Origin: Thioclava dalianensis
GTDB taxonomy: Bacteria > Pseudomonadota > Alphaproteobacteria > Rhodobacterales > Rhodobacteraceae
DNA length: 64,000 nucleotides
Reading direction: 5' to 3'
Assembly: GCF_000715505.1 (NCBI RefSeq)
Contig: NZ_JHEH01000002.1
Location: 124,001-188,000 of the forward strand
Below are positions 42,137-47,139 of the stretch, piece by piece; position 1 is the first letter of the stretch, and each line of letters begins with the position of its first letter. The position numbers were made by a program, and so were the translations under genes. The notes under the pieces are model-generated. The model was not told the origin of the DNA. It searched no databases and worked only from the letters and a program-made list of their open reading frames with translations.

Positions 42137-42898
42137 TCAGACGGCACCGTCGGTGTCGATATGCACCACCGTGCCGCAATGTTTGCAATGAACCGCGTCG
42201 GCGTCATGCAGGCTCAAGCCGCAGGTCTCGCATTCATGACGGATCTTGGTGGGCCGGAACAGCACCTGCGCGAGACGCAAAAACAGCGTCACGCCGAAGA
42301 TCATGATGAGAACCGCGAGCATCCGCCCCCATTCGCCTTTCGGGGTGATGTCGCCGAACCCGGTTGTCGTCAGCGTCGTCACGGTAAAATAGAGCGCATC
42401 CGAATAGTTGTCGATCTGGGGATTGATCCGCACCTGCGTCGCATAGATGAACCCGGTCATCACGAAGAGAAAAACGCACAGGTTAATCGCGGCCAGCACG
42501 ACCTCTTGGTTGCGGCGGAAAAAGGCAAAATCCGCACGCAGCCGCGCGACAAGCTGATAGGTGTGCAACAGCCGCAAGGTGCGCATGATCCGCAGAAAGC
42601 CAAGCCCTTCCCCGGCAATCGGCGCAAGAAACGAGGCGATAGCCACGAGATCCGCCAAAGTCGTCAACTGCGTCCAGAAGCGCCATTTCCCCTTGGTGAT
42701 CGCAAAGCGCGCGGCGAAATCGCATACGATCACCAAGCCGATCAGCGCATCCACCCATTCGATCCAGATTTGGCCCGGGAAGAACGAGCTGACGATCACG
42801 AAGCAGATCGTGATCAGATCGAAGCCCAGCAGCGCATAACGGAAGCGATGCGCCTCAGCGCGATCAGAGTCGTAGAGCGTTTTGAGAAGGTCGAGCAT
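42137..42898 (-). CDS. Voltage-gated-like potassium channel with a C-terminal zinc ribbon
   Basis: 253 residues: six membrane helices in the Kv order, an S4 helix with spaced Arg (L-R-I-M-R-T-L-R-L-L), the pore helix Y-F-T-V-T-T-L-T and selectivity filter T-T-G-F-G-D near residue 185, then S6. After about residue 215 the cytoplasmic tail holds C-E-T-C ... C-K-H-C, a four-Cys zinc ribbon. The channel should carry K+ across the inner membrane. The zinc ribbon in place of an RCK or cNMP domain is unusual and may sense metal or redox state. Confidence 0.88.
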   Translation of the reverse strand: MLDLLKTLYDSDRAEAHRFRYALLGFDLITICFVIVSSFFPGQIWIEWVDALIGLVIVCDFAARFAITKGKWRFWTQLTTLADLVAIASFLAPIAGEGLGFLRIMRTLRLLHTYQLVARLRADFAFFRRNQEVVLAAINLCVFLFVMTGFIYATQVRINPQIDNYSDALYFTVTTLTTTGFGDITPKGEWGRMLAVLIMIFGVTLFLRLAQVLFRPTKIRHECETCGLSLHDADAVHCKHCGTVVHIDTDGAV

Positions 42899-42996: not shown

Positions 42997-43025
42997 GAAA
43001 GCGGCCCCCGGGGGGGACCGCTTTT
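42997..43025 (-). terminator. Terminator after exported repeat protein A
   Basis: On the minus strand AAAGCGG-T-CCCCC pairs with GGGGG-CCGCTTT. The AAAGCGG arm sequence recurs in the terminator at 43854, consistent with duplication of the whole unit. Confidence 0.7.
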
Positions 43026-43098: not shown

Positions 43099-43593
43099 TC
43101 AGCTCGCAGTAGCGTTATCGATCACGTAGCTCACGTCAGTCATGTTGTCGTTTTGAGCCGACTGATTGATCCGCTCAAGCTGCGCTTGGGTGAAATCGGT
43201 CGGGTTCAGGTTCAACTCCTCAGCAAGCTGGGTTTTGCCCTGATTGGTTGCACCAACGCCGGGGCCACCGGGCAGACGGTTTTCGTGGTTGACGTAGAAG
43301 TTCACCTGCGAGATGTCGCCGTCGCGGGCGGCCCGGAGAATGTTTTGCAGCTCGTTCGCGCTGTAGCTGTCGGGGTTGATATTACCCAAACCTGCGAAGG
43401 TTTGCAGCTGAGCGGCCAGCTGGGTTTTGCCCTGATTGGTCGCGCCGAGCGTCGCGGTATCAGATGCAACCGAATGGACATACATGGGCGGAGCGATGAC
43501 GCCATACTGGCTCGTTTCGGCAGATGCCACGCCAGCGGTGCCAGCGGCCAGAGCGAAAGCCGCGAGAGCGGTGTAAACAGAATTGCGGGTCAT
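43099..43593 (-). CDS. Exported NQGK-module protein A (uncharacterised family)
   Basis: 164 residues: signal peptide (1-25, ending A-S-A), the shared G-V-I-A-P-P-M-Y stretch, then two copies of a module of about 60 residues. Each begins G-A-T-N-Q-G-K-T-Q-L-A (NQGK at 53-56 and 117-120) and continues through an (A/T)xxL helix to an aromatic-Val strand (F-Y-V-N-H, S-Y-V-I-D). It has no Cys and no catalytic motif I recognise. AAGGAGG lies before ATG 43593. It is the right-hand neighbour's paralogue, with its own promoter and terminator. Function unknown; probably periplasmic or secreted. Confidence 0.85.
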   Translation of the reverse strand: MTRNSVYTALAAFALAAGTAGVASAETSQYGVIAPPMYVHSVASDTATLGATNQGKTQLAAQLQTFAGLGNINPDSYSANELQNILRAARDGDISQVNFYVNHENRLPGGPGVGATNQGKTQLAEELNLNPTDFTQAQLERINQSAQNDNMTDVSYVIDNATAS

Positions 43594-43650
43594 GATGACC
43601 TCCTTGGGTGATAGTTAAAATCTCGGCGGCGCTTCGTCGCCAGTGATCCT

Positions 43651-43679
43651 GATATAGGACAACAATTTCGATAGATAAC
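43651..43679 (-). promoter_or_regulatory. Candidate promoter of exported protein A
   Basis: Minus strand: GTTATC, 17 bases, TATATC, about 57 bases before the start codon. The same arrangement with the same spacing is kept upstream of gene B, which argues that it is functional. The -35 hexamer does not match the housekeeping consensus well. Confidence 0.5.
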
Positions 43680-43853
43680 CGCAAAAATAAACCAGAACTT
43701 GTGCGATAATGCGCATATATTTTGGGAACCAAATCCGACAGACGATTTGCGCTAAACCTCTGAAACGGAGCGCATTATCAGGAAACATCTTCGTCACGTC
43801 CGCGGCTCTGCGGACGCGGAACGCCCACTGTGCAAGGTGCGATGCCAAATAGT

Positions 43854-43883
43854 AGAAAGCGGCCCCGGATGGGACCGCTTTTC
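43854..43883 (-). terminator. Terminator after exported repeat protein B
   Basis: Minus strand AAAGCGG-T-CCC, loop, GGG-GCCGCTTT followed by CT. It uses the same outer arm as the terminator of gene A. Confidence 0.7.
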
Positions 43884-43948
43884 TGGTATGCCGTGCGTGG
43901 ATCCGACAGGAGACGCAGGACATGTTTCGCTTGAGCTAGGCGCTACGA

Positions 43949-44440
43949 TCAGATCGCGTTATTGCCGGTGAGCGCATAGCTGGCATCCGTCAAGTTGCTA
44001 TGCATGGCCGAGTTATCTGCACGCCCGAGTTGGCTCATGGTGTAAGTCGTGGGCTGCAGTTTCATCTGATTCGCTAGCTGCGATTTGCCCTGATTGGTTC
44101 CACCGACACCGGGGCCACCGGGCAGACGGTCTTGATGCTGAACGTAGTAGCTCACTTGCGACGTATTCCCGACACGCGCAGCTTCCACGATGTTTTGCAG
44201 CTCGTTTGCGGTATAGTTGGCGGGATTGATGTTGCGCAGGCCCGGGAAGGTCTGAAGCTGTGCGGCAAGTTGGGTTTTGCCCTGATTGGTCCCGCCGAGC
44301 ACCGTATCGCTGGCGGCAACCGAGTGGGCATACATCGGCGGTGCGATAACACCGAGCTGATCACCGGCCGAAGCCATGCCAGCGGTACCAGCGGTGAGGA
44401 TGAAAGCGGCGAGAGCGGTATAAACGGAATTGCGGGTCAT
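43949..44440 (-). CDS. Exported NQGK-module protein B (uncharacterised family)
   Basis: 163 residues, a close paralogue of protein A. The first 20 residues differ at only two positions (M-T-R-N-S-V-Y-T-A-L-A-A-F at the start), and G-V-I-A-P-P-M-Y follows the signal cleavage. Modules carry NQGK at 52-55 and 116-119, joined by the same R-L-P-G-G-P-G-V-G linker. The second module is more diverged at its C-terminus. ATG 44440 has GAAGGAGG upstream; a longer frame reaches the next terminator and is not supported. It likely arose with A by tandem duplication. Confidence 0.85.
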   Translation of the reverse strand: MTRNSVYTALAAFILTAGTAGMASAGDQLGVIAPPMYAHSVAASDTVLGGTNQGKTQLAAQLQTFPGLRNINPANYTANELQNIVEAARVGNTSQVSYYVQHQDRLPGGPGVGGTNQGKSQLANQMKLQPTTYTMSQLGRADNSAMHSNLTDASYALTGNNAI

Positions 44441-44499
44441 GATGACCTCCTTCGCATGAAGAATAACTATCTCGGCGGCATTTCGTCGCCAGTGATCCA

Positions 44500-44528
44500 A
44501 ATATAGGCCTGCGATATCGGCAGATAAC
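44500..44528 (-). promoter_or_regulatory. Candidate promoter of exported protein B
   Basis: Minus strand: GTTATC, 17 bases, TATATT, matching the element upstream of gene A in sequence, spacing and distance to the gene. Confidence 0.5.
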
Positions 44529-44814
44529 TGCCAGAAATGCCTCCGAATTGCGCTTTGACGCACATATTTCCCGGGAACTATTTTTAAGATCATTTTTCCG
44601 AACAAACATCTGATAATAAACAACTTAATCGGAACATCGTTACATCAGAAACAAGCTCCCACCGGATCGCCAGCCGATTGTTTCAAAAATTTCTGCACCA
44701 GTCGCGCGAATGCGACAGACCGTGTGCGATGCGATACCGGAGAAATGGGTGCAGCTCCGTTGCTTCAACGCGCCGCTTGACCGCAACACCGCAAAACTGG
44801 CCCGCAGCAGACAT

Positions 44815-44845
44815 GGAAACGGCCCCCCGAAGGGAGCCGTTTCGT
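44815..44845 (-). terminator. Terminator after exported repeat protein C
   Basis: Minus strand GAAACGGCTCCC pairs with GGG-GGGCCGTTTC across a short TTC-containing loop, 26 bases after the stop. Confidence 0.7.
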
Positions 44846-44870
44846 GCGTATAGTGCGAGACCCGTCTGGA

Positions 44871-45209
44871 TCAGGCTTGCGAGCCGAGAACCGGCTGCGG
44901 AGCGACGTGAACCGGCACACGGTTGGTGTGGTTGATCACGTAGTTCGCCTCGGTGATGTTGTTGTTTTCAAGCGCACGCTGGATGCGGATCAATTCGGCT
45001 GCGGTGTAATCGGTCGCGTTCAGGCCGAGCTGAGCGGCGAGCTGCGATTTACCTTGGCTGGTTTGACCCAGACCCGCGCCTTCGCTGGGAGCCGAGATGG
45101 TGGCGTCCATCGACGGTGCGATCACGCCGAGCGCGTCGCTCGAAGAAGCGGCAGCAAACGAGGTGGACAGGGCAAGGGCAATGACGGAAGTCGTGATAAG
45201 CGTTTTCAT
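44871..45209 (-). CDS. Exported single NQGK-module protein C (uncharacterised family)
   Basis: 112 residues: signal peptide (M-K-T-L-I-T-T-S-V-I..., cleavage near F-A-A-A-S), the shared L-G-V-I-A-P-S-M stretch, then one module: G-Q-T-S-Q-G-K-S-Q-L-A-A-Q-L (SQGK at 51-54), Y-T-A-A-E-L-I-R-I-Q, and Y-V-I-N-H-T-N-R-V-P. It has the same architecture as A and B but a single module and a different leader, so it is an older paralogue. GGAGAG precedes ATG 45209. Function unknown. Confidence 0.85.
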   Translation of the reverse strand: MKTLITTSVIALALSTSFAAASSSDALGVIAPSMDATISAPSEGAGLGQTSQGKSQLAAQLGLNATDYTAAELIRIQRALENNNITEANYVINHTNRVPVHVAPQPVLGSQA

Positions 45210-45370
45210 ATTTTCTCTCCTAAGAACCATACTGGTTAAACTGTGCTGCAGGCGGTGCGCCGGGGGAGGAGCGCCGTTGCTGCGAAGCGTGATAATCATC
45301 TAGGTTCGTTCATGTGTGCAGAAAACGGCAGCTTTACACAGCTTACTGTGCGCCATCGCGCAAAGTTTTT

Positions 45371-45399: not shown

Positions 45400-45483
45400 C
45401 GGTTCGCAGATGCGACGCCCCCTTTCCCTGAGCCCGCTTTCCTAATAGAAGGCGCCAAATCCCAAATTCCCATGAGGTGCACG

Positions 45484-47139
45484 ATGGCGTCCTATCAATA
45501 TGTCTATCACATGGATGGTGTCTCGAAGACCTATCCGGGCGGCAAGAAATGCTTTGAGAATATCCGCCTGAACTTCCTGCCCGGCGTCAAGATCGGCGTC
45601 GTCGGCGTCAACGGCGCAGGTAAATCGACGCTGCTGAAGATCATGGCCGGCATGGACAAGGATTTTCAGGGCGAGGCTTGGGCTGCCAAGGGTGCCAAGG
45701 TTGGCTATCTCGCGCAGGAGCCCGAACTGAACGACGACAAGACCGTGCGTGAAAACGTCATGGAAGGCGTGGCTGCGAAAACCGCCAAGCTGGAGCGCTA
45801 CAATGAGCTGGCGATGAACTACTCGGACGAGACCGCCGAGGAGATGGCCGCGCTGCAAGACGAGATCGACGCAGAAAACCTGTGGGATCTCGACAGCCAG
45901 GTCGATATCGCGCTGGAGGCTCTGCGCTGCCCGCCCGATGACGCCAATGTCGCCAATCTCTCGGGCGGTGAGCGTCGCCGCGTCGCGCTGTGCAAGCTGC
46001 TGCTGGAAGCGCCCGACATGCTGCTGCTGGATGAGCCGACCAACCACCTTGACGCCGAAACCATCGCTTGGCTGCAAAAGCACCTGATCGAGTATAAGGG
46101 CACGATCCTCTGCGTCACCCACGACCGCTACTTCCTCGACGATATCACCTCGTGGATCCTCGAGCTGGAGCGCGGCCGCGGCATCCCCTATGAGGGCAAC
46201 TACTCCGCATGGCTCGAGCAGAAAGCCAAGCGGATGGAGCAAGAGGCCCGCGAGGACAAGGCCAAGCAGAAAGTGCTCGAAAAAGAGCTCCAGTGGATCC
46301 GTGCCGGCGCCAAGGCCCGTCAGGCGAAATCCAAGGCCCGGATCGCGGCCTATGACAAGATGGCCGATGAGGGGGTCAAGGATCGCGTCGGCAAGGCGCA
46401 GATCATCATCCCGAACGGCCCGCGTCTGGGCTCCAAGGTGATCGAGGTCGAGAACCTGACCAAGCATATGGGCGACAAGCTGCTGATCGAGGGGCTGAGC
46501 TTCTCGCTGCCGCCGGGCGGCATTCTGGGCGTGATCGGCCCCAACGGCGCGGGCAAATCGACGCTGATCAAGATGATCACCGGCGATGAGGCCCCCGATA
46601 GCGGCACCATCACCGTGGGCGACACGGTCAAGCTGGCCTATGTCGATCAGTCACGCGACGCGCTTGGCGCCAATCACAACGTCTGGGAAGAGATCTCGGG
46701 CGGGGCGGAAATGATCGATCTGGGCGATGCGCAGGTTGCCAGCCGCGCCTATGTCGGTGCGTTCAACTTCAAAGGCGCCGATCAACAGAAGAAAGTCGGT
46801 CAGCTCTCGGGCGGTGAACGCAACCGCGTGCATATGGCCAAGCTGCTGAAATCCGGCGGCAACACGCTGCTGCTCGATGAGCCGACCAACGATCTGGACG
46901 TCGAGACCCTGCAGGCGCTGGAAGCGGCGATCGAAGATTTCGCGGGCTGTGCGGTGATCATCTCGCACGACCGCTTCTTCCTCGACCGGCTGTGCACCCA
47001 TATCCTCGCCTTCGAGGGCGATGCGCATGTGGAATTCTTCGAGGGCAACTTCGAGGATTACGAGGCCGACAAGATCCGCCGCCTCGGCCCTGATGCCGCC
47101 GAGCCCAAGCGCGTGAAGCACAAGAAATTCTCGCGCTAA
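45484..47139 (+). CDS. ettA: Energy-dependent translational throttle protein EttA (ABC-F ATPase)
   Basis: 551-residue ABC-F protein with two ATPase domains and no membrane part. Walker A motifs are G-V-N-G-A-G-K-S (near residue 40) and G-P-N-G-A-G-K-S (near 355), each with an L-S-G-G-E signature and L-L-L-D-E-P-T-N. The arm/linker between them (about 240-320, rich in Lys/Glu/Ala with W-I-R-A-G-A-K-A-R-Q-A-K-S-K-A-R) marks EttA. It binds the ribosomal E site and gates early elongation in response to the ATP/ADP ratio. ATG 45484 is used for family length. Confidence 0.96.
   Translation: MASYQYVYHMDGVSKTYPGGKKCFENIRLNFLPGVKIGVVGVNGAGKSTLLKIMAGMDKDFQGEAWAAKGAKVGYLAQEPELNDDKTVRENVMEGVAAKTAKLERYNELAMNYSDETAEEMAALQDEIDAENLWDLDSQVDIALEALRCPPDDANVANLSGGERRRVALCKLLLEAPDMLLLDEPTNHLDAETIAWLQKHLIEYKGTILCVTHDRYFLDDITSWILELERGRGIPYEGNYSAWLEQKAKRMEQEAREDKAKQKVLEKELQWIRAGAKARQAKSKARIAAYDKMADEGVKDRVGKAQIIIPNGPRLGSKVIEVENLTKHMGDKLLIEGLSFSLPPGGILGVIGPNGAGKSTLIKMITGDEAPDSGTITVGDTVKLAYVDQSRDALGANHNVWEEISGGAEMIDLGDAQVASRAYVGAFNFKGADQQKKVGQLSGGERNRVHMAKLLKSGGNTLLLDEPTNDLDVETLQALEAAIEDFAGCAVIISHDRFFLDRLCTHILAFEGDAHVEFFEGNFEDYEADKIRRLGPDAAEPKRVKHKKFSR

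Follow-up and report, generated by a model that had tools for sequence, protein, structure and literature searches.

An array of predicted exported repeat proteins in Rhodobacteraceae, with a candidate operator and a candidate LysR-type regulator

The array and its flanks

The window (the whole 64,000-nt stretch of Thioclava dalianensis DNA that was analysed) carries three adjacent minus-strand genes for predicted exported proteins: gene 1 (43099..43593; P0001, 164 aa, two modules), identified from its ORF and an AlphaFold2 model; gene 2 (43949..44440; P0002, 163 aa, two modules), identified as a tandem paralogue from its ORF and its 66% identity to P0001; and gene 3 (44871..45209; P0003, 112 aa, one module), identified from its ORF and profile score. 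Each protein has a signal-peptide-like start, followed by G-V-I-A-P and one or two copies of the module, and no Cys is present in the three sequences. The ORFs and the alignment of the modules thus bear out the initial annotation, made from the letters alone, which had reported three minus-strand genes with such starts, G-V-I-A-P, five modules and no Cys. Genes 1 and 2 represent a tandem duplication, the repeated unit spanning about 850 bp and taking in promoter and terminator as well; the dN/dS between P0001 and P0002 is 0.25.

A purine-rich, ribosome-binding-like stretch precedes each gene, and a terminator-like hairpin lies 3' of each on the minus strand, at 42998..43024 for gene 1 (-21.7 kcal/mol, z -1.9, with 9 of 200 shuffles as good), 43854..43884 for gene 2 (-21.0 kcal/mol, z -4.4) and 44816..44843 for gene 3 (-23.7 kcal/mol, z -4.2). 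A simple terminator scan listed the hairpin of gene 2 and not those of genes 1 and 3. The proposal that each gene has its own promoter and terminator holds in that the genes form separate transcription units with a hairpin after each, although the scan returned one terminator of the three.

The array is flanked by ettA (45478..47139, plus strand, NCBIfam match), a conserved neighbour of this site that stands outside the mechanism proposed below, and on the opposite side by an ion channel gene (42137..42898, minus strand, Ion_trans_2 domain), which matches NCBIfam potassium-channel models below their cut-off; both are given as context only. The same site (ettA, one to three family genes, the channel gene and mostly rimO) was found in 7 of the 11 same-genus stretches fetched, the other 4 being further family copies at other places, and in a different genus (G046) ettA, two family copies and rimO occur in that order. 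Outside the array site, family members are scattered. In the genome of T. dalianensis itself, only the five modules of the array were found with the module profile (E <= 5).

Several arrangements of family genes elsewhere are worth recording. In genome G035, three dispersed units (L099, L100 and L101), each with one family gene and its promoter, are 98.4–99.6% identical over 0.93–1.07 kb, and no terminal repeats were seen in their alignment. Two contig starts of genome G007 (L145:68-83 and L146:68-83) hold copies of a family promoter, which suggests that additional repeats of family genes have been collapsed. Two Thioclava plasmid records (L121:9929-12905 and L122:8013-10989) show a family gene immediately 5' of katG and in the same orientation.

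The module and its protein family

The five window modules align with nine invariant columns, among them Q-G-K, Q-L-A and one later L. The initial annotation had proposed a module of about 60 residues; the module is real, but its conserved core spans about 46 residues, with a median repeat spacing of 55.5. In the collected set of 68 distinct proteins (69–212 residues, 142 modules), the strongest columns are L24 (96%), Q7 (94%) and A9 (91%), and Y/F/L-[ST]-x-x-[EQT], which presumably represents something like a helix-capping box, is conserved in 136 of the 142 modules (loose pattern). No conserved catalytic set was seen in the module columns, in agreement with the first reading, and the conserved residues look structural rather than catalytic.

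AlphaFold modelling of P0001 (38 aligned sequences) gave two groups of three helices, with block pLDDT mostly 62–79 in the helix groups and below 50 in the leader (pTM 0.39), while a three-module relative (23 sequences) showed the same three-helix modules with block pLDDT mostly 82–97 (pTM 0.37). In these models the modules are firm and the arrangement between them is not fixed, each module being predicted to consist of three short helices. The initial annotation had suggested structure prediction and expected a helix followed by an aromatic-Val strand; the helical modules were predicted, but the strand was not, its place being taken by the third helix. None of the solved structures in the PDB was convincingly like the module.

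No family in Pfam, NCBIfam or the PDB matched the window proteins, whose best scores were 16.3 bits against a cut-off of 35 in NCBIfam and 12.7 against 29.4 in Pfam. Among the listed matches, no Pfam family (searched with 23 and with 38 members) and no NCBIfam family (23 members) was hit by more than two members; the single-member matches include an IS110 transposase model (7.6e-5 in NCBIfam, 1.8e-4 in Pfam). The description of the module as undescribed and without a known domain therefore stands, as no Pfam or NCBIfam score over a curated cut-off is common to the members. In PHROGs, phrog_21387 (57 positions, no assigned function) gave a weak match in 6 of 38 members (best 2.7e-5; P0001 0.09), which falls on the second module of the protein encoded at 43099-43593.

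A survey of relatives, also suggested at the outset, did find homologues. With a 39-module profile (E <= 0.001), 29 of the 198 genomes sampled within the taxonomic family of T. dalianensis proved to have these proteins; the profile also found them in 13 of 16 genomes of the genus and in 2 of 240 class-wide genomes, one of the two being the T. dalianensis genome and the other giving a weak match. A profile built from other genera only scored P0003 at 50.8, P0001 at 51.7 and P0002 at 34.4 bits, and although the selection was partly circular, as the modules of the other genera had been picked up initially by a profile of the five in the window, these scores indicate that the similarity is more than chance. 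The window module belongs to a broader repeat family, of which it forms one branch; the 68 collected proteins carry one (16), two (31), three (20) or four (1) modules.

The export call rests on a simple rule of charge and hydrophobicity, which recognises a signal peptide in 66 of the 68 members; the other two miss only a K/R near the start. The mature part contains Cys in 1 of the 68 and is acidic (median pI 4.8). Divergence between genera is strong, and dN/dS ranges from 0.01 to 0.47 in 13 coding pairs of orthologues and paralogues, values below 0.5 that point to constraint. Sequence comparison thus defines a family of proteins with signal-peptide-like starts and one to four predicted three-helix modules, so far seen in one bacterial family, the Rhodobacteraceae. 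Several same-genus proteins and that of G046 have a conserved, proline-containing C-terminal tail ending in G-R-D-S/A, e.g. the one-module proteins at L068:1360-1692 and L069:1447-1779, and also L006:1267-1683; the C-terminus of P0003 differs and ends in G-S-Q-A.

A palindrome upstream of many family genes

The palindrome TGTGC-N6-GCACA was first noticed by reading the upstream regions of family genes. In the window, consensus and weight matrix mark three candidate operators on the minus strand: W1 (43700..43715, TGCGC-N6-GCACA), W2 (44549..44564, TGTGC-N6-GCGCA) and W3 (45347..45362, TGCGC-N6-GCACA), which end 106, 108 and 137 nt before the start codons of genes 1, 2 and 3, respectively, and each agree with the consensus at 9 of 10 positions. 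Sites with 9 or 10 matching positions occur within 200 nt in 29 of the 68 family promoters and within 260 nt in 35, whereas the remaining 33 have no site of at least 9/10 within 260 nt. For those 29 promoters, 0–3.5% of 200 dinucleotide shuffles scored as well. Next to katG, the sites of the family copies are weak (8/10 and 7/10). An exact TGTGC-N6-GCACA also lies about 150–180 nt before genes read as the propionyl-CoA carboxylase beta subunit in two genera (L144:2286 and L153:2167).

A weight matrix was made from 16 promoters of other genera, excluding the genus of the window, regulator-adjacent promoters and sites below 9/10. With this matrix W1, W2 and W3 were the three best sites in the 64-kb window (20.2, 17.6 and 13.8; next best 12.2). 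By sequence, the array genes share one predicted operator, present once per gene, and the separate tuning of the three genes initially suggested is not supported. In the aligned sites, an A precedes the palindrome, A/T-rich blocks lie about 18–23 and 29–32 nt after its centre, and TA is found at 53–54. This column pattern would fit a -10 element with the palindrome centre near -60 to -65 relative to inferred start sites; from reading and column conservation, the putative -10 elements on the minus strand are TATATC (43651..43656) for gene 1, TATATT (44500..44505) for gene 2 and TAGATG (45297..45302) for gene 3.

A sequence-only promoter profile of 28 promoters was run over 20 genomes. The training list had left out 5 of the 35 operator sites, two more were dropped at alignment, and the relatives in the promoter set had been found with window-derived profiles, so that selection was partly circular; moreover, 5 of the 28 training promoters adjoin the regulator gene described below, a circularity that the other-genera matrix was made to avoid. 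At E <= 1 there were 58 matches, 33 of them at E < 0.05: 30 before listed family genes, one before a new member and two at contig ends without a visible gene. Thirteen of the 33 had not been used in training, namely 10 ahead of family genes already known, that of the new member and the two at contig ends. The new member, in genome G221, is an 87-residue predicted exported protein that scores 40.6 bits (E 4e-11) with the 39-module profile and was absent from the listing of the earlier five-module profile; the promoter profile predicted it before the protein search showed it.

The 25 matches at E 0.05–1 comprise 6 family promoters (in two cases the opposite strand of a site matched before), 5 regulator promoters and 14 elsewhere, the last figure being close to the chance expectation for 20 genomes. 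In three same-genus genomes that lack the family, all matches were at E >= 0.19. Among the weaker matches, the recurrent one was the promoter of a conserved LysR-type gene.

A conserved LysR-type regulator

The product of this gene in T. dalianensis, P0004, has HTH_1 and LysR_substrate domains, and a match to it (E <= 1e-60) was found in 35 of 36 genomes, once in each except G007, which has two. The promoter profile matches the regulator promoter at E 0.05–0.77 in 5 of 10 same-genus genomes, with all matches abutting the LysR gene and pointing away from it; as they are weak singly, they count by recurrence alone. With the other-genera matrix, the upstream region (within 120 nt) scored at least 8 in 18 of 29 regulator loci, compared with 2.8% of 2000 random stretches, a conservative control since the stretches were drawn from loci that include family promoters; one further locus of the 30 (L251) was not parsed. 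Seven of the nine genomes lacking the protein family fall within the 18, and the 11 regions scoring below 8 include three that adjoin family genes (L248, L252 and L259). In T. dalianensis, a near-identical site lies just upstream of P0004, at the edge of the matrix scan and visible in other scans. A frequent form upstream of the regulator is TGTTC-N6-GCACA, mostly 15–50 nt before the start.

In several other genera the LysR-type gene is a neighbour of family genes, often with a gene read as ffh on the other side of these; T. dalianensis also has this LysR–ffh site, and there an azoreductase-like gene separates the two. The divergent partner of the regulator in the 29 loci is the azoreductase-like gene in 16, a family gene in 6 and neither in 7; a seventh genus with a family gene as partner (G226) falls outside this count. 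In the six family-partner loci, the sequence stretches examined around the regulator contain no azoreductase-like gene. The azoreductase-like partner has a Flavodoxin_2 domain over the cut-off and matches NCBIfam azoreductase models below their curated cut-offs.

The matches at regulator promoters and the divergent partners link operator, regulator and family without use of the window. That the operator is the binding site of the conserved LysR-type regulator (P0004 here) is well supported by these sequence data, and regulation of the family genes by it is probable. The regulator also occurs where the family is absent and is therefore not dedicated to the family. P0004 lacks Cys, so it is hardly a thiol switch; 10 of the 29 regulator orthologues have one to four.

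Possible function and alternatives

The three anonymous hypothetical proteins now represent a defined family with a candidate regulator and operator. Our best explanation, though we put it at somewhat below an even chance, is that they are exported modular proteins, with modules independent of one another, that are controlled by the LysR-type regulator and perhaps form the envelope arm of a response to quinones or electrophiles. Their job outside the cytoplasm, deduced from export, module form and the partner gene, is held a shade more loosely still. Rhodobacteraceae meet algal and plant quinones. The suggestion of quinones or electrophiles is made because azoreductases belong with quinone reductases, as given in the available part of PMC4051601. 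The regulator would respond to a small ligand, possibly a quinone or another electrophile, and would occupy the operators, activate the family genes from about -60 to -65 and also activate the azoreductase-like gene. The exported modules would act in the envelope as binding or shielding proteins, the counterpart there of the cytoplasmic reductase, and family copy number would change by gene duplication. LysR-type activators usually have a site near -65.

A more specific form of this proposal, which we consider doubtful, is an undescribed chemical-stress regulon of Rhodobacteraceae. The regulator of a cytoplasmic quinone/azo reductase would also command dispersed, duplicating exported proteins of three-helix modules, whose role in the envelope would be to sequester the same compounds or to shield against them. 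In six genera or more, the position beside the regulator that elsewhere belongs to the reductase is taken by the exported protein. If this is true, an exported repeat-protein arm of a chemical stress system would apparently be new for these bacteria.

Alternatively, the products could be surface or matrix proteins whose modules serve as adhesive beads for biofilm or particle contact, the LysR link merely switching them on. Bead-like repeats of variable number, models of good local but low overall confidence (pTM 0.39 and 0.37), the acidic mature parts and the strong divergence between genera would all suit such a role. However, no anchor or secretion-system signal was noticed on reading the sequences, the dN/dS values of the 13 pairs indicate constraint, and the pairing of the regulator with an azoreductase-like gene gives a hint of a chemical signal, so that we regard adhesive beads as rather unlikely. 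A role as helical, chaperone-like proteins in the periplasm, akin to Spy/CpxP and induced when the envelope is stressed, is less likely again: such proteins too would be small, exported and, by prediction, all-helical, with stress-type regulation inferred, but Spy/CpxP is absent among the listed Pfam matches at E <= 0.1 (23 and 38 members) and NCBIfam matches (23 members), and a bead architecture differs from the cradle shape of Spy/CpxP proteins.

The palindrome, which we take to equal the core of the Agrobacterium tra box, could instead be bound by a quorum regulator of the LuxR/TraR type, since its distance from the start is as in class I TraR promoters and proteins with a LuxR autoinducer-binding domain are present in the T. 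dalianensis genome. All 28 genomes searched have this domain, whether or not they carry the family, so it does not discriminate; moreover, a scan of 14 luxR stretches (4 own, 10 from relatives) gave one 9/10 site, inside a frame read as luxI, and it is the LysR promoter at which matches of the promoter profile recur. We therefore think such a regulator improbable. A nucleotide-binding P-loop, suggested by a Walker A-like GxxxxGK(T/S) seen on reading all five window modules, is contradicted by the fact that only 19 of the 142 family modules carry the motif, in 14 proteins that all belong to this genus, and by all-helical models that lack the strand a P-loop follows, and we give it hardly any credence.

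Comparison with known systems

The preferred reading, exported modular proteins under a LysR-type regulator, resembles several known systems in part. The predicted modules may be comparable to the three-helix domains of staphylococcal protein A. FMN-dependent azoreductases belong with the NAD(P)H quinone oxidoreductases (PMC4051601, in the part available); the regulator's divergent partner is like them in its Flavodoxin_2 domain and its below-cut-off matches to azoreductase models, but they are unrelated to the exported module proteins. According to the available part of PMC3907764, the tra box of class I promoters is found about 65 nt ahead of the start, and its six central bases have no interaction with TraR. 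The inverted repeat near -65 and the six free central bases are alike here, whereas the regulator is more likely of the LysR type. LysR-type regulators divergent from a target gene include GcvA, MetR and IlvY, and their classic recognition motif is T-N11-A (both from the part of PMC5002191 available). The present system shares with them the HTH_1 and LysR_substrate domains, the divergent orientation and a shared intergenic site near the regulator's own start. It differs in its even-spaced TGTGC-N6-GCACA, which reads as T-N10-A rather than T-N11-A, and in its proposed trans targets, a family of exported proteins that is dispersed and duplicating.
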